A DNA stretch of 64,000 nucleotides, taken from the NCBI RefSeq assembly GCF_001650725.1, contig NZ_LXVX01000002.1, positions 62,001 through 126,000 on the forward strand. The letters run 5' to 3'. Position 1 is the stretch's first letter, and each line of letters starts with the position of its first letter. The position numbers were made by a program, and so were the translations under genes. Below, in pieces: positions 6,923 through 12,567 of the stretch. Under the pieces are notes generated by a model that worked only from the letters and a program-made list of their open reading frames with translations, did no database searches and was not told where the DNA came from. This DNA is from Sphingobium sp. TCM1 (GTDB taxonomy: Bacteria; Pseudomonadota; Alphaproteobacteria; Sphingomonadales; Sphingomonadaceae).

Positions 6923-8037
6923 GACCGCACCGTGATGTCCGCCAGCGTCCGCCCGCCCGGATCCTGCGACGGCGTGGCCGTGATCGTGAAGCCGGACGCC
7001 TGCAACGCCAGCAAGACTATGTTGATGTCATCCGACCTGGCCGCCGCCAGCGTCGCGCGAACCATGCCGTCGGGGTCACGCGACAGGCTGGTCAGCGCGA
7101 CGCCCGGCGCGTCCTGCATTGCGGCGAGAAGGCCCGAAACCGGCGCGGTGAAGGCGCGGCCCCCTGCACCGCGCGCGGCCAGCCTCGCTTCCATCTCGAC
7201 CTGCGCCTGCGCGGCATCGGTGGCGTTGGGCAGTACCTGCTGCGCCAGGGCCAGGCTTTCCCCGTCGAGCCTGCTCGCCTCCATATGCTGGCGGGCGATC
7301 GTGACGAGCGCGATCAGCAGGCTGACCAGCAGGAGCAGCCCGCTCCACAGCGCGATGCGACCGATCGCCATGCGGTCGACCGCACGCCGCACCCGCTTGG
7401 CAAACTCGCCCTGTCGCAGATCGAGCGGCGGCGCATCGAGCGCGGCGATCGCGCGGCCCTCGATCGCCCCCGGATCGGCGTCTACGATGGGCGCATCGCC
7501 GATCAGTTCGGGCAAGGCCATGTCGGCGGGCAGCGCCATGTCCACGCCGCGCAGCATTGCGTTCCCGCCCACCACGCCACGGGTCAGCCCCTTGTCCGGC
7601 TCCGGCAACAGCAGTGGCGCAGGGACGATGATGTCCGGGTCCAGGCCATGATGCTGCGCCCAGAGCAACCAGTGCTGCATGTCGGCGCGGCTGGCGACCG
7701 CCACCACATGCGGCCGCGCCGGATCGTCATTCTCGTCGGTCGCGGCGAACAGCTGGTCGGCCGGCAGCAGTCCTGCCGCCAGCGCGGTCAGTCGCGATGC
7801 CGCCCGCCCCTGCCGCGCGGGCAGGTCGGGATGGGCTATCCAGTGCAACGTCACCAGCGCGGCCGGCGGCACCAGCAGCACGCGAGCCTGCTCCGGCAGC
7901 GCGGCGATCCCGCACGCAGCGAGCCAGTTTGCGCCTTCGCCCGTCCGGACCGGCGCGCCATCCACCACCCGCGTCCAGCGCGCGGGCGCGGTTTCCGCCT
8001 CGGGCAGAAAGACGATCAGGGCATCGCGGCTGCTCAT
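6919..8037 (-). CDS. gspL: Type II secretion assembly protein GspL
   Basis: A 372-residue GspL, which recruits the ATPase GspE to the inner membrane. The cytoplasmic actin-like region (about 1-235) begins MSSRDALIVFLPEAE, a single transmembrane helix lies near 250-272, and a periplasmic domain follows. The ATG at 8037 is chosen over an upstream in-frame start because it overlaps the gspK stop in an ATGA junction and gives the family N-terminus. It overlaps gspM by 4 bases. Confidence 0.92.
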   Translation of the reverse strand: MSSRDALIVFLPEAETAPARWTRVVDGAPVRTGEGANWLAACGIAALPEQARVLLVPPAALVTLHWIAHPDLPARQGRAASRLTALAAGLLPADQLFAATDENDDPARPHVVAVASRADMQHWLLWAQHHGLDPDIIVPAPLLLPEPDKGLTRGVVGGNAMLRGVDMALPADMALPELIGDAPIVDADPGAIEGRAIAALDAPPLDLRQGEFAKRVRRAVDRMAIGRIALWSGLLLLVSLLIALVTIARQHMEASRLDGESLALAQQVLPNATDAAQAQVEMEARLAARGAGGRAFTAPVSGLLAAMQDAPGVALTSLSRDPDGMVRATLAAARSDDINIVLLALQASGFTITATPSQDPGGRTLADITVRS

Positions 8038-9023
8038 GCACCTGCCCCCCAACTGCGCCGCACCAATATCGCCGGGCTTTGCCGCGCGTCGATCAGCGCC
8101 CGCTCCACCAGTTGCGTTCCCCCGACATCCACAGAAACCTCTACTCCGAAAAATCCTGTCGTCATTTTGACCTGTTCCGACACTTCGGTCATCGGCGACA
8201 GGCCGGCGAGCGAAGGCAAGGCCCAGAATTGCACCGTCCCGCCGTAGCCGTCCGCAGGCCGCTGCGCCAGCAATTGCCGTGCCTGCGCGACGCTCATTTC
8301 CCCTGGCAACAGCATGGCGACGAGCGGCGCCTGATCGGGCAGCAGCGTATTGATGTTGATCGGCGACAAATCCGTGACCGGCAGCGCGCATATCCAGGGT
8401 TTGACCAGATCATAGATGGCGGGCGTGATCCCCGCCACCGCCCGCAACTCGCTGGGATCGACCATCATGCGGTTCGCCACGCGATAGGGACGCTCGGCCT
8501 GCGCATAAAGATCATCCTCCGCTCCGCCCGGCTGCGGCACGGCATCGCTGTCAATCCAGTCGGCAAGACTGGCGGACGCCGCCTGCGCCTGCCGCGCGTC
8601 GACGCCCAGCGCCTGGAGCAGCGCCTGGAACTGGGTGACGCCGATGGGGCGGACCTGAAGCGCGGCCTCATTCTCGCCGCTAACCACGCTGTTGAGGTTG
8701 AAGCAGTTGCTGCCGTCGGTGACGCGCGCGGTCGCAACGCCGCCGGGCACCGGGATCGCCTGCGGCGCGCCCATCCATCCCCCCGCCAGCGTCATCTTCG
8801 TGGGATTGGACGCGACCAGATCGCCGATCCGCAGCCGGGCGATCTCGGTCCCCGCATCGGCATAGGCCCGCGCTTGGTCGACCGCGCCGCCATTGCCCGT
8901 CATGCGCGTGGCCAGCGCCAGCCGCTCCAGCGCGCCGGCGGCGACCACCGCCATCACCGCCACCAGCAGCAGCACGGTCAGCAGCGCTGCGCCCGCCTCG
9001 GCTTTCCTGCGGGGATCAGGCAC
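8034..9023 (-). CDS. gspK: Minor pseudopilin GspK
   Basis: The 329-residue large minor pseudopilin that caps the pseudopilus tip with GspI and GspJ. The leader is short and ordinary (MPDPRRKAEAG, cleavage before Ala) and is followed by a hydrophobic helix; the +5 Glu typical of other pseudopilins is absent, as is normal for GspK. A large globular domain with 'DWIDSDAVPQPGGAED' and 'NINTLLP' motifs follows, both family hallmarks. It overlaps gspJ by 8 bases and gspL by 4. Unlike gspG, H and J it shows no reiterated leader. Confidence 0.94.
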   Translation of the reverse strand: MPDPRRKAEAGAALLTVLLLVAVMAVVAAGALERLALATRMTGNGGAVDQARAYADAGTEIARLRIGDLVASNPTKMTLAGGWMGAPQAIPVPGGVATARVTDGSNCFNLNSVVSGENEAALQVRPIGVTQFQALLQALGVDARQAQAASASLADWIDSDAVPQPGGAEDDLYAQAERPYRVANRMMVDPSELRAVAGITPAIYDLVKPWICALPVTDLSPININTLLPDQAPLVAMLLPGEMSVAQARQLLAQRPADGYGGTVQFWALPSLAGLSPMTEVSEQVKMTTGFFGVEVSVDVGGTQLVERALIDARQSPAILVRRSWGAGA

Positions 9024-9756
9024 CGCCCGCTCCTGCCGTTTCGGCGGGCTTTTCCGCCGGACCGGGCGCGACGAGGAACTGCAGCGTCACCGCCGGCTCG
9101 CCGGTGCGCGTCACGCTCATCTCCACCGCTTTCGGCAGCAGGTCGGGCTGAGTCGGCGTCCAGTCTTCGCGCCATTCGCCCTGGGCGTCGCGAAACCGCA
9201 GCGTCACCGCCTCGACATTCTCCAGCAGCGCGGCGGGATCATCGCCCGCCGCCCCATCCAGTTGCGCGTAGGTCCGCCGCTCCAGCCGCCCCTGGCGCAC
9301 CCAATATTCGACTTTCTGCAAGGAAGGACGCGGCAGATCGCCCAGATTGTCCCAGCCGCCGCGAACGAACTGCATCACCGGCTGGCCTTCGCCACCGTCA
9401 TGCGCCCAGAAAGCCGGCGCAAGCGTCCCCGCCTCGGTCCGGGTGATGCGTGGCACCGCCTGACCCAGATCGCCGGCCAGCGCCCCGCCGGCACGCTGCA
9501 CCGCCGCCATGTCGTCCAACCGCGCCTTGACCTGCGCCTGCGCGGACACGCTGTTGCCCAGCAGCAGTACGCCGGCCGCCGCCAGCATGGCGAAGATCAT
9601 GAACGCGACGAGCAGTTCGATCAGCGTGAAGCCCTGTTGGGCGGAACGGGGGGAAGCCGTGAAGCCCTGTTGGGCGGAACGCGCGGAAGGCGTCTTTTCG
9701 TCGCTTCCGTTCGTTTCCAGCGAAGCCAACGGAACAGGTGACCGGTCGATGCCCAT
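9016..9756 (-). CDS. gspJ: Minor pseudopilin GspJ with duplicated leader motif
   Basis: A 246-residue minor pseudopilin. The ATG at 9756 is chosen because it forms a TGATG junction with the gspI stop. Cleavage is expected at Gly42-Phe43, just before the TLIELL hydrophobic helix, leaving a 204-residue mature protein. The 42-residue leader is long for this family and contains RSAQQGFT twice, 11 residues apart (26-33 and 37-44). Before that lies ASLETNGSDEK, which resembles the REP-derived stretch in the gspG leader. Globular domain and position are typical of GspJ. Confidence 0.92.
   Translation of the reverse strand: MGIDRSPVPLASLETNGSDEKTPSARSAQQGFTASPRSAQQGFTLIELLVAFMIFAMLAAAGVLLLGNSVSAQAQVKARLDDMAAVQRAGGALAGDLGQAVPRITRTEAGTLAPAFWAHDGGEGQPVMQFVRGGWDNLGDLPRPSLQKVEYWVRQGRLERRTYAQLDGAAGDDPAALLENVEAVTLRFRDAQGEWREDWTPTQPDLLPKAVEMSVTRTGEPAVTLQFLVAPGPAEKPAETAGAGGA
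9626..9691 (-). repeat. Two 33-nt tandem units in the gspJ leader
   Basis: Two in-frame copies, 9626-9658 and 9659-9691, both beginning GTGAAGCCCTGTTGGGCGGA on the plus strand. On the coding strand each encodes an 11-residue unit built on RSAQQGFT. The first 24 or so bases of the two copies are identical; the last part differs. The same unit occurs in gspG, gspH and, once clearly, in gspI (from 10093). Confidence 0.9.
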
Positions 9757-10160
9757 CACTCGACCACCCGGATGAAGCTCAAGACCACGGGCGAGGCGCC
9801 CGGCTGGCCGTCGATGGTCAGGTCGACCTGCAACAGACGCTTGTCGTCCGTGGCCCTCACGCTGCGGCTCCAGTGCCAACGCCGACCGCCATTTTCGACC
9901 TCGCCATCCTCCTCGCCGATCGAAGGCGGCGCGGGGTCCGTCTGCGCCTCGACCATCAGGTTGCGCGCGACGATCTGGCCCAGCGCCTTGCTGTCGAGGT
10001 CCGCCGCCGTCCGCAGCGTTACGCCCTGCAAGCGTACCAGTGCCAGCGCGGCCAGGCTGAACACTGCCAGGGCGACCAGCATTTCGAGCAGCGTGAAGCC
10101 GTGTTCGGCGGAAGTCCGTAAGGGGGGCAAACCCGCGTCGCTCTTGTCGCCTCTAGCCAC
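9756..10160 (-). CDS. gspI: Minor pseudopilin GspI
   Basis: A 134-residue minor pseudopilin that nucleates the pseudopilus tip. The start is GTG at 10160, overlapping the gspH stop by 8 bases. Cleavage is expected at Gly21-Phe22 within SAEHGFTLLEM, with Glu at +5 of the mature protein. The leader has one clear copy of the 33-nt unit and, just before it, a segment (DKSDAGLPPLR) that may be a decayed second copy. The mature length of 113 residues is normal for GspI. Confidence 0.92.
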   Translation of the reverse strand: MARGDKSDAGLPPLRTSAEHGFTLLEMLVALAVFSLAALALVRLQGVTLRTAADLDSKALGQIVARNLMVEAQTDPAPPSIGEEDGEVENGGRRWHWSRSVRATDDKRLLQVDLTIDGQPGASPVVLSFIRVVE

Positions 10161-10701
10161 CGACCATGACCTTCCCCGCCATGTCGATGGTCACGGACAC
10201 ACGCTCGCCCTCGCGCGCCAGCGTCACGGTCAGCGGATCAGTGGGAAGGCCGGTGCCGTCAAACGCGATCTGCTGGCGCCCGTCCTTGCCCACCAGTGCG
10301 CGCGTGCCGCTTTTCCAGTTGGCGGTGCCAAAGGGCTTGTCCTCTATCTCCGCCCACTGGCCGCCCTCGCGGCGCTGGAAGCCATAGCCGGAGGCGGACA
10401 CCCAAAGCCCCATGGGGCGTGCGGTGACGACCGCTTCGTCGCGCGCGGCGGCGACGCGCGCGGCGAAGCGGTCGGCATCCTCGATCACCCGGCCACGCGG
10501 GTCGGGGATGGCAAGTATGACGGCAGCCGAAATGAAGCCGATGATCGTCAGCACGACCATCAGTTCCAACAGCGTGAAGCCTTGTTGAGCGGAACGCACC
10601 GCAAGCGTGAAGCTCTGCTGGGCAGAACGTCCCAAAAGCGTGACGCCGCGCCCGCTGGCACGCGAGCGCGTCCCCGCGAAGGCAGCGCCCCGCCGCCCCA
10701 T
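10153..10701 (-). CDS. gspH: Pseudopilin GspH with triplicated leader motif
   Basis: A 182-residue pseudopilin. The ATG at 10701 is chosen since it lies 13 bases after the gspG stop; earlier in-frame starts would overlap gspG. Cleavage is expected at Gly41-Phe42 before TLLELMVV. The leader has three 11-residue units: a degenerate RASGRGVTLLG (14-24), RSAQQSFTLAV (25-35), then the functional RSAQQGFTLLE (36-46). In the middle unit the scissile Gly is replaced by Ser. The mature domain of about 141 residues is ordinary. Confidence 0.92.
   Translation of the reverse strand: MGRRGAAFAGTRSRASGRGVTLLGRSAQQSFTLAVRSAQQGFTLLELMVVLTIIGFISAAVILAIPDPRGRVIEDADRFAARVAAARDEAVVTARPMGLWVSASGYGFQRREGGQWAEIEDKPFGTANWKSGTRALVGKDGRQQIAFDGTGLPTDPLTVTLAREGERVSVTIDMAGKVMVGG
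10571..10669 (-). repeat. Three 33-nt tandem units in the gspH leader
   Basis: Consecutive units at 10571-10603, 10604-10636 and 10637-10669, each beginning AGCGTGA on the plus strand. The first two are clearly alike; the third is decayed but keeps the 11-residue periodicity and a GVTLL core in place of GFTLL. They encode reiterated prepilin leader segments. Confidence 0.85.
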
Positions 10702-10714
10702 GCGTCGCCTCGCT

Positions 10715-11338
10715 TCAGAGTTCGCTGGAGAAGATGTCCGCATTCTCATTCTCGCCACCCGGCTGGCCATCGGCGCCCAGCGAGCTGATGTCGAACGCGC
10801 CCCGGCGCCCCGGCACGTTGTAGAGATAGGCGCGACCCCACGGATCGTCAGGCAGCTTCTTGATATAGCCGCCGCGCCGGTAGCGCTGGGGCTGGGCCAG
10901 CGATGCCGGCGGGTTGAGCAGCGCCTGCAAGCCGTCGCTCGCTGCCGGATAGGTCAGATTGTCGAGCCGATATTGCTCCAGCGCCTGCTCGATGGTCGAA
11001 ATATCAGCCTTGGCCTTCTCGATCCGGGCGGTGTCGGTCGCGGGAATGACGTTGATCGCCACGATCGTCGCCAACAGGCCGATGATGACGATCACGACCA
11101 TCAGTTCGACCAGAGTGAAGCCGTGTTCGGCGGAACGCTTCGAAAATGTGAAGCCGTGTTCGGCGGAACGCCTCGAAGACATGAGGCCGATTTCGGCGGA
11201 ACGCCTCACGCGGGTGAAACCAGCTTCACCGGACCTCTTGTCACCGTTCGTCCTCAGGCTGTCGAAGGGCCTCACTTTCTTATCGAAGAAGGAAAGGGCT
11301 TCGGCAAGCTCGGCCCGAAGGGATTTTCGTTTGAACAT
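10715..11338 (-). CDS. gspG: Major pseudopilin GspG with reiterated leader
   Basis: Major subunit of the T2SS pseudopilus. The ATG at 11338 is chosen because AAGGAG (11345-11350) sits 6 bases upstream; an in-frame TTG at 11353 is less likely. The 207-residue precursor has a 73-residue leader, then Phe74 and the classic TLVELMVVIVIIGLLA helix with Glu78 at +5; the 134-residue mature part with the 'DPWGRAYLY' loop is normal. Leader residues 35-78 consist of four 11-residue units, RSGEAGFTRVR, RSAEIGLMSSR, RSAEHGFTFSK and RSAEHGFTLVE. Residues 23-34 (RPFDSLRTNGDK) are a translated REP-like palindrome. GspG leaders are normally about 6-10 residues. Confidence 0.95.
   Translation of the reverse strand: MFKRKSLRAELAEALSFFDKKVRPFDSLRTNGDKRSGEAGFTRVRRSAEIGLMSSRRSAEHGFTFSKRSAEHGFTLVELMVVIVIIGLLATIVAINVIPATDTARIEKAKADISTIEQALEQYRLDNLTYPAASDGLQALLNPPASLAQPQRYRRGGYIKKLPDDPWGRAYLYNVPGRRGAFDISSLGADGQPGGENENADIFSSEL
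11115..11246 (-). repeat. Four 33-nt tandem units in the gspG leader
   Basis: Units at 11115-11147, 11148-11180, 11181-11213 and 11214-11246. The first two share GTGAAGCCGTGTTCGGCGGA and most of the rest; identity falls with distance from the mature coding region. All are in frame and encode the peptide around the prepilin cleavage site. The decay gradient suggests the copy next to the hydrophobic helix is the one under selection. Confidence 0.93.
11243..11272. repeat. REP-like palindromic element read through by gspG
   Basis: The plus strand contains CCGTTCGTCCTCAGGCTGTC followed by GAAGGGCC. This closely matches a widespread proteobacterial intergenic palindrome of the CCGTTCGTCCTGAGC type, which ends TGTCGAAGGGC. 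Here it is in frame inside the gspG leader and yields RPFDSLRTNG, a peptide commonly seen where this element is translated. The family match is from memory. Confidence 0.7.
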
Positions 11339-11349
11339 ATTCAACTCCT

Positions 11350-12567
11350 TCAAGCCCCGGTCAGGCTTTGCAGCTGCAAGATCGGCAGCAGGATGGACAG
11401 GATGATGACGGCGACGATGCCGCCCATCAGTATGATGATCACCGGCTCCAGCATCGCAAGCGCTGTGGAGGTGAAGCTGTCAAATTCGCGCTCCAGATAG
11501 TCGGCGGCGCGTTCCAGCATCGTATCGAGCCGCCCCGCGCTTTCGCCGCTCGCCGCCAGATAGACAAGCAGGGGCGGAAAGACGCCCGCCCGGCGCAGCG
11601 CCGCCGACAGGCTGCCACCGCCCCGGATCGCCTCGACAATCTCGTCCGACGCCTTGCGCAGAACGCGATTATGCACGGTGTTGGCAGTCAGCGACAGGCC
11701 TTCCATCAACGGCAGGCGGCTCGCCACCATGGTGGAAAGCGTCCGCGCCATTCGCGCGGCATGTAAGTCGCGAATCAACCGCCCCAGCAGGGGCAGGCCC
11801 AGCAGCATCGCATCGAAACGATAGCGGAAACTCTCGACCTTCATCGCGCGCCAGAACCCGGCTCCGGCCAGCAGCAGCAGGATCAGCAGCAGCCACCAAT
11901 AGCCGGCGAGGAAAGCCGACACGCCCATCACCAGCCGAGTCAGCAACGGCAGTTCCTGGCCGACAGTATCGAACTGCTCGACCACCTTGGGCACGACGAA
12001 GATCATCAGCGCGGCCACCACGCAGACGGCAAAGGCCGCCAGGACGGAGGGATAGGCGATGGCGGTCAGCACCTTGGACCGAATCACCGCCTGCCGTTCC
12101 ATCAGGTCGGACAGGCGCTCCATGATCGTCGGCAGGCTGCCAGAGCTTTCGCCGGCCGAGATCATCGCCCGATAGAGGGGCGGAAAGCTCTTCGGCTCCG
12201 CGCCCAGCGCATCGGCCAGCCGCCGCCCCTCCAGCACGCCCGAATGCACCTTGCCCACGATCGCGCGGACATGGGCCTGTTCGCTCTGGCGGCCAATCGT
12301 CCGCAGCGATTCCTCCAGCGGGCTGACCTGGATCAGCGTCGACAGCTGGCGGGTGAAGAGAGTCAGTTCCTTGGCGCTGAGGCGCGGCGCCCGCAGCGAC
12401 AGGCCCGCGCGCTTGCGCGCCGCCTCGACCGCGCCCGGCTCCAGCCGCACGACGAACAGCTTGCGCGCGTCCAGCCTGGCGCGCGCATCGTCGATCGTCT
12501 CGGCCCTGATCGCTCCCTTGCGCTCCTTGCCCGCCGGGTCGATCGCTACATAGTCGAAATCAGCCAT
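11350..12567 (-). CDS. gspF: Type II secretion inner-membrane platform protein GspF
   Basis: The polytopic centre of the T2SS inner-membrane platform, 405 residues, normal length. Two repeated cytoplasmic GspF domains (about 70-190 and 270-390) with conserved 'LYRAMISAGE' and 'LLVYLAASGE' segments surround three transmembrane helices near 170-195, 215-240 and 375-400. The ATG at 12567 overlaps the gspE stop by 8 bases. gspG follows closely. Confidence 0.96.
   Translation of the reverse strand: MADFDYVAIDPAGKERKGAIRAETIDDARARLDARKLFVVRLEPGAVEAARKRAGLSLRAPRLSAKELTLFTRQLSTLIQVSPLEESLRTIGRQSEQAHVRAIVGKVHSGVLEGRRLADALGAEPKSFPPLYRAMISAGESSGSLPTIMERLSDLMERQAVIRSKVLTAIAYPSVLAAFAVCVVAALMIFVVPKVVEQFDTVGQELPLLTRLVMGVSAFLAGYWWLLLILLLLAGAGFWRAMKVESFRYRFDAMLLGLPLLGRLIRDLHAARMARTLSTMVASRLPLMEGLSLTANTVHNRVLRKASDEIVEAIRGGGSLSAALRRAGVFPPLLVYLAASGESAGRLDTMLERAADYLEREFDSFTSTALAMLEPVIIILMGGIVAVIILSILLPILQLQSLTGA

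Follow-up and report, generated by a model that had tools for sequence, protein, structure and literature searches.

A 33-bp repeat carrying a prepilin cleavage site in the pseudopilin leaders of a Sphingobium type II secretion operon

The window (the whole stretch of 64,000 nucleotides from Sphingobium sp. TCM1 that was analyzed) contains a type II secretion system (T2SS) operon on the minus strand, in which gspD, E, F, G, H, I, J and K were assigned by profile search, with the GspH model falling short of its cut-off by 0.3 bits. The major pseudopilin gene, gspG, lies at 10715..11338 (TIGR01710, E 1.6e-49, 167.4 bits, above cut-off) and starts with an ATG at 11338. A Shine-Dalgarno-like AAGGAG, read directly from the sequence at 11345..11350 (minus strand), overlaps the stop codon of gspF, and the same AAGGAG-ATG layout precedes gspG in the related loci L132 and L121. 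Three minor pseudopilin genes follow on the same strand: gspH (10153..10770; TIGR01708, E 2.5e-22, 79.7 bits against a cut-off of 80; fitting operon position; start codon uncertain), gspI (9756..10160; TIGR01707, E 8.4e-25, 87.2 bits, above cut-off) and gspJ (9016..9879 as the longest open reading frame; TIGR01711, E 4.1e-35, 121.3 bits, above cut-off). The true start of gspJ is likely the ATG that overlaps the gspI stop codon. The operon also includes gspK (8034..9023, minus strand; NF037980, E 2.5e-82), whose putative cleavage site, between AG and AALL, is without GFT. GspG, H, I and J each carry the prepilin motif GFxxxE before a hydrophobic helix, and their genes are the only ones for GFxxxE prepilins detected in the genome (search at E 0.5).

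The leaders of these four genes contain members of a repeat family. The unit is 33 bp long and consists of a 21-nt core, CGTTCCGCCSAACASGGCTTC, and a linker of ca. 12 nt. As originally predicted, the gspG leader is exactly 73 residues long, counted to the Gly that precedes Phe. The same prediction described four 33-nt copies of the cleavage segment at its end; three of these are family units, and the outermost is native. The native part of the leader (11213..11338, minus strand, as are all features of this leader) comprises 42 codons including the old GFT. Within it lies a dispersed REP-like repeat (FDSLRTNG, 11244..11269) with 6 further matches in the genome at 3 mismatches, and it closes with the native cleavage motif RSGEAGFT (11213..11236), which matches the core at fewer than 15 of 21 positions and ends the unit-less leader in relatives. 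Three inserted units follow: RVR-RSAEIGLM (11180..11212; 18/21 to the core), SSR-RSAEHGFT (11147..11179; 21/21) and FSK-RSAEHGFT (11114..11146; 21/21). The third carries the Gly-Phe that adjoins LVELM, and the TIGR02532 match starts there and runs in one stretch, which agrees with the claim that only the last copy adjoins the helix; in each of the four proteins, TIGR02532 gave one match, at the helix-proximal copy. Tandem Repeats Finder (TRF) reported a period of 33 at 11115-11207, and a repeat search of the window returned three copies in gspG, not four.

In L132 and L121, the gspG leader is homologous, unit-less and 40 residues long (MFNLKSVRAELVEAL...GDETSGEAGFT), with LVELM directly after it. 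On this basis, the 73 residues of the window leader are composed of 40 native and 3 x 11 inserted residues. Most of the gradient, which had been read as identity decaying with distance from the helix, is therefore the difference between native and inserted sequence, the leaders of L132 and L121 ending in TSGEAGFT. A second genome of the species (G084, 4 contigs) was aligned over 2600 nt, with 12 substitutions, no gap and 99.5% identity. Its units are identical to those of the window and equal in number, so an assembly error behind the gspG array is unlikely.

A scan of the 64-kb window with the core returned eight matches of 18/21 or better (three in gspG, two in gspH, one in gspI and two in gspJ), all in the sense of the operon; every other site scored 15/21 or less. 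On the minus strand, the gspH leader has two units (RSAQQSFT and RSAQQGFT, 10573..10629; cores at 10609-10629, 18/21, and 10576-10596, 19/21; TRF period 33), the gspI leader has one (TSAEHGFT, 10092..10115; 19/21), and the gspJ leader has two with identical cores (RSAQQGFT twice, 9625..9681; 21/21 twice; TRF period 33). No unit is present in gspK of the window. With a 23-nt motif at up to 3 mismatches, 6 matches were found in the window, compared to 0 expected from shuffles, and the 5.15-Mb genome gave 6, all in this operon. A further repeat, of the AFAGTRS type, lies in the gspH leader at ca. 10640-10690 (minus strand). A loose motif of this type was found in 6/88 gspG, 13/87 gspH, 10/86 gspI and 3/87 gspJ leaders of the genus, and it often finishes in ...ERGFT at the cleavage site.

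Among 94 genomes of the genus, 88 had a close gspG and 83 matched the 23-nt motif one or more times; when all 94 were searched at 3 mismatches, all but two of the matches listed were at a gsp operon. The loci compared were gspG-J of the 88 genomes and one non-orthologous T2SS-like operon, giving 90 loci from which one duplicate was dropped. Sites matching the core at 17/21 or more were counted as units, with the exception of the codon count that was based on a protein motif. Locus L118 (a second gsp copy in one draft genome) was excluded from the counts. The non-orthologous operon, L170, was included in the unit totals, the Gly-Phe register and the covariation and sense-orientation counts, and was left out of the codon, linker, leader-length, substitution, empty-site, tree and co-occurrence counts. 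L111 and L161, which are near-identical to other loci, were left out of the linker-sharing and covariation tests. The 352 parsed leaders contained 305 units (161 terminal and 144 internal; 0-7 per leader), and these counts are lower bounds because two of the four unparsed leaders (gspJ of L002, gspI of L125 and L155, and gspH of L168) carry arrays. Leaders free of units numbered 36/88 for gspG, 42/87 for gspH, 59/86 for gspI and 50/87 for gspJ.

Changes were mapped on a tree of the mature G-J proteins of 84 genomes (quick search, LG model). The presence of units changed at least 23, 23, 13 and 16 times in gspG, H, I and J, respectively, or at least 75 times summed over the four genes; copy number changed at least 35, 34, 18 and 29 times. 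Of the 30 closest genome pairs, which are not independent of one another, 25 differed in their number of units. Under a simple start rule, gspG leaders were 17 to 86 residues long in 60 of the 88 genomes; the rule found no start in 26 and a wrong one in 2 (giving 125). In the originally proposed comparison of related gspG 5' ends, unit number does vary between relatives. In L134 (genome G080), the gspH and gspJ leaders share a long near-identical stretch, made up of a repeat end and two units, as if one leader had been copied from the other. A draft genome, G109, has two gsp regions on different contigs (L117 and L118) with equal unit counts.

In the family, tandem cores (up to 3 mismatches) were found in 24 of 397 sampled genomes and in 11 of 96 genera; each array in the fetched family loci lies before a prepilin helix. 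A sample of 385 genomes from the class, which held 4 other genomes of the family and 380 from other families, had tandem cores in one genome, the window's own, and in 0 of the 380 from other families. The 33-mer with the linker ACGCCCGTGAGG is found in Sphingobium and also in three or more further genera. The non-orthologous T2SS-like operon L170 (genome G032) has four identical units behind a GFT of its own. In the draft genome G255, gsp operons overlap on two contigs (L203 and L204), with four units in one gspG array and at least seven in the other; nine units are present in the gene at the gspJ position, where the contig ends, and one contig starts inside an array. A strain mixture, real variation or an assembly effect may account for the differing arrays of this genome. 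A viral carrier of the unit was rejected on 0 exact core matches in viral_contigs.

The position of the units relative to native sequence was examined in the 161 leaders that have a strong unit. In 72 of them (GFT in 40), a native Gly-Phe precedes the outermost strong unit by 33 nt, and at each of 20 other codon registers Gly-Phe occurred 0 or 1 times in ca. 160 leaders. It is absent from the native slot in the remaining 89, so that the placement of the unit behind a native Gly-Phe is a frequent but not a general rule. For 26 leaders, the array is preceded by 60 nt that match the end of a unit-less leader at 72% identity or more, although these cases are not all independent because both genomes of the window's species are included and the shared stretch is in several of them itself a repeat. 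The cleanest empty site is in gspJ, where L017 reads GAACAAGGTTTTACG, 33 nt and CTG, and L005 and L015 read GAACAAGGTTTTACC and CTC. The mature genes of L017 and L005 are 97% identical, and the 33 nt are inserted directly after GFT. As the comparison shows, an insert of this kind adds 11 codons and ends in a new Gly-Phe-Thr, so the helix keeps its predicted cleavage site and the mature protein would therefore be unchanged. Beside this insert, changes of ACC to ACG and of CTC to CTG (L017 and L006 vs. L005, L015 and L113) mark a candidate copying tract that reaches into the helix; codon tests for such tracts were weak over 20 tests. Native GFT slots read GGCTTCACG in 22/39 cases, compared to 51/188 in array-less leaders, and conversion by the unit could also be the cause of this excess.

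The GFT junction is not obligatory, because units off that junction exist. A unit was found in the gspK start region of 1 of 55 scannable genomes, compared to 48, 44, 26 and 36 of 84 genomes for gspG, H, I and J. That single unit lies in the L121 gspK leader (gspJ/gspK junction, sense position ca. 2594) and is in a different reading frame, LSSVPPYTASRG. Likewise, gspI of L005, L006, L015 and L113 has one or two units in another frame between the arms of a different inverted repeat, and in L005, L006 and L113 the gspH copy of that inverted repeat is free of units. Throughout the 89 operon loci, 322 of 322 core matches are in the sense orientation.

The codons of the units are largely frozen. 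In units chosen by DNA similarity, Arg was CGT in 240/268 cases, Ser was TCC in 269/281 and Ala was GCC in 284/290; the corresponding figures for the mature genes were 324/3761 (9%), 372/2196 and 1922/6286. The Glu, His, Gly and Thr codons of the unit are similarly frozen, and that of Phe more weakly. Because this first set had been chosen by DNA similarity, the codons were recounted in 233 units chosen by the protein motif RSA[EQ]xGF alone, with CGT in 213, TCC in 225 and GCC in 228; none of the 233 scored below 17/21 to the core, and a selection artefact was rejected. The frozen codons, the units in other frames and the uniform sense orientation argue that DNA was copied rather than protein selected. 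Linkers point to exchange between genes: those of different genes in one genome were within 1 nt of each other in 7.2% of 419 pairs, compared to 1.9 +- 0.9% under the null, and 0 of 2000 shuffles reached the observed value. The E or Q type of the core was not shared above chance between the genes of one genome (0.518 vs. 0.581), which disfavors frequent conversion of whole arrays. A genome-level activity factor was rejected, as the clumping of unit-bearing genes per genome (co-occurrence among the four genes) was not significant (P 0.08).

If the arrays had arisen by replication slippage of each gene's own leader, they would be local tandem duplications of the native cleavage segment. Such an origin would account for the exact 33-nt tandem layout and for the frequent differences in copy number between close relatives, and linkers are indeed more alike within one array (0.23 of 219 pairs within 1 nt) than between genes. 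However, both in the window and in numerous relatives the native segment is unlike the units, which match a consensus that is common to four genes and 11 genera and that has frozen otherwise rare codons; comparison with unit-less relatives also reveals a foreign unit placed after native sequence unrelated to it. The native Gly-Phe register, the unit-less relatives, the shared consensus and the frozen codons led to the rejection of native-leader slippage as the sole source, and we consider this explanation unlikely; slippage is plausible as a route of expansion once a unit is present. The original suggestion that leader length evolves freely by slippage accordingly holds for the length, which varies, and fails for the source.

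A transposase-driven element is slightly less likely still. REP sequences are short palindromes that are mobilized by Y1 transposases and occur in many copies between genes across a genome. The unit resembles them in being a short sequence with a predicted hairpin: its 24-nt part is predicted to fold with 7 pairs, at -6.5 kcal/mol for one core type and -7.8 kcal/mol for the other (z-scores -1.6 and -2.7). A REP- or MITE-like element with this hairpin and a GFT-like target would also suit the frequent insertion right after GGCTTCACG-like codons, and the all-sense orientation could reflect a strand-specific, single-strand mechanism. Unlike REP sequences, however, the unit is intragenic and in sense only in the scanned loci, and it is not dispersed over this genome, the six matches being confined to the window operon where many intergenic copies would mark a REP. 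Y1-transposase mobility was rejected because PF01797 had 0 matches in this genome; a control search was positive in 5 of 14 genomes. Pairing covariation was limited to the E/Q pair that distinguishes the two core types, which could stem from one ancestral event; beyond that pair, covariation lends no support to the predicted hairpin as a conserved RNA or DNA structure.

Least probable of all, and very improbable in our estimation, is selection for a role of the extra RSAEHGFT copies in slowing, staging or regulating the maturation or membrane insertion of prepilins. In its favor, the internal copies show a synonymous excess (60 of 139 changes, 0.43, compared to 0.24-0.29 expected without selection), which could result from homogenisation by the functional copy, recent spread or mild protein constraint, and they retain Gly in 141 and Phe in 134 of 144 cases (copies chosen by core similarity). 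Against it, presence changed at least 75 times among 84 genomes, 188 of 348 leaders are without a strong unit, synonymous sites also show strong conservation, if weaker than that of other sites, and the units of gspK and gspI noted above are in other frames.

We regard it as probable, with some confidence, that the unit is an operon-confined, cleavage-site-bearing repeat that has been copied between co-oriented leaders and is tolerated since GspO removes the leader. The more limited statement, that an inserted DNA unit is tolerated in a discarded leader, is firmer and very probably correct. The comparison of related loci shows the unit entering as DNA, with rapid later changes in presence and copy number. 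From established prepilin biology, GspO would be expected to cut the cytoplasmic leader at the helix-proximal Gly-Phe; because the leader would be cut off, in-frame stuffing would be tolerated and the mature pseudopilin left as it was. The copying could proceed during replication or repair, when strands would switch between co-oriented leaders of one operon via the shared junction GGCTTCACG; imported homologous DNA may provide an alternative route for the switching. The switched strand would copy one or more units and then switch back, after which slippage within the array would add and remove units. Strand switching or gene conversion of this type would fit the insertion after Gly-Phe, the sense-only orientation, the confinement to the operon, the sharing of linkers and the preference for GGCTTCACG. 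We put the chance that this is the mechanism of copying at about even.

Several known systems bear a partial likeness to the unit. Bacterial minisatellites (VNTRs) in coding genes are tandem, in frame and variable in copy number. The arrays share the tandem, in-frame copies, the number of which varies between species; unlike minisatellites, the same unit is shared by four non-allelic genes and 11 genera, behind unrelated native sequence. The prepilin leader is a cytoplasmic segment of variable length that is removed after Gly-1 (PMC10191384, PMC6497953). Type IVb pilins and the PilE of S. sanguinis have in common with the present proteins a variable leader length and Gly-1-dependent processing, but the available portions of these two reports mention no repeats, whereas here the length derives from units and other repeats. 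Rickettsia palindromic elements, as described in a review (PMC10969869), are repeats of ca. 150 bp located in frame inside many unrelated genes. They and the unit are alike as repeated DNA in frame within protein-coding genes; the unit differs in being 33 bp long, in occupying the prepilin leaders of one operon type, in bringing its own cleavage motif and in forming tandem arrays. Insertion into unrelated genes is not the pattern of the unit: gsp operons account for all but two of the matches listed, and the arrays of the fetched family loci precede prepilin helices. Judged by titles and the openings of abstracts, no report of repeats in pseudopilin leaders was found among the open-access papers listed.

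For practical purposes, care is needed with the annotated start codons and leader lengths of sphingomonad pseudopilins. The arrays constitute a natural experiment both on the tolerance of prepilins to N-terminal stuffing and on the way in which GspO passes over decoy Gly-Phe sites. The presence changes across the four genes, at least 75 in number and some with unit-less relatives to compare, also provide a dense record for the study of transposase-free DNA copying between the genes of an operon. Tentatively, and with the balance tipped slightly toward doubt, the repeat may be a new kind of selfish DNA: a 33-bp unit whose cleavage-site codons rebuild its own harmless landing place, and which would spread by co-oriented copying, without a transposase, from one disposable leader to another within a secretion operon, and also from genus to genus of the sphingomonads. 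The leader would then serve as a neutral sink in which other repeats gather as well.
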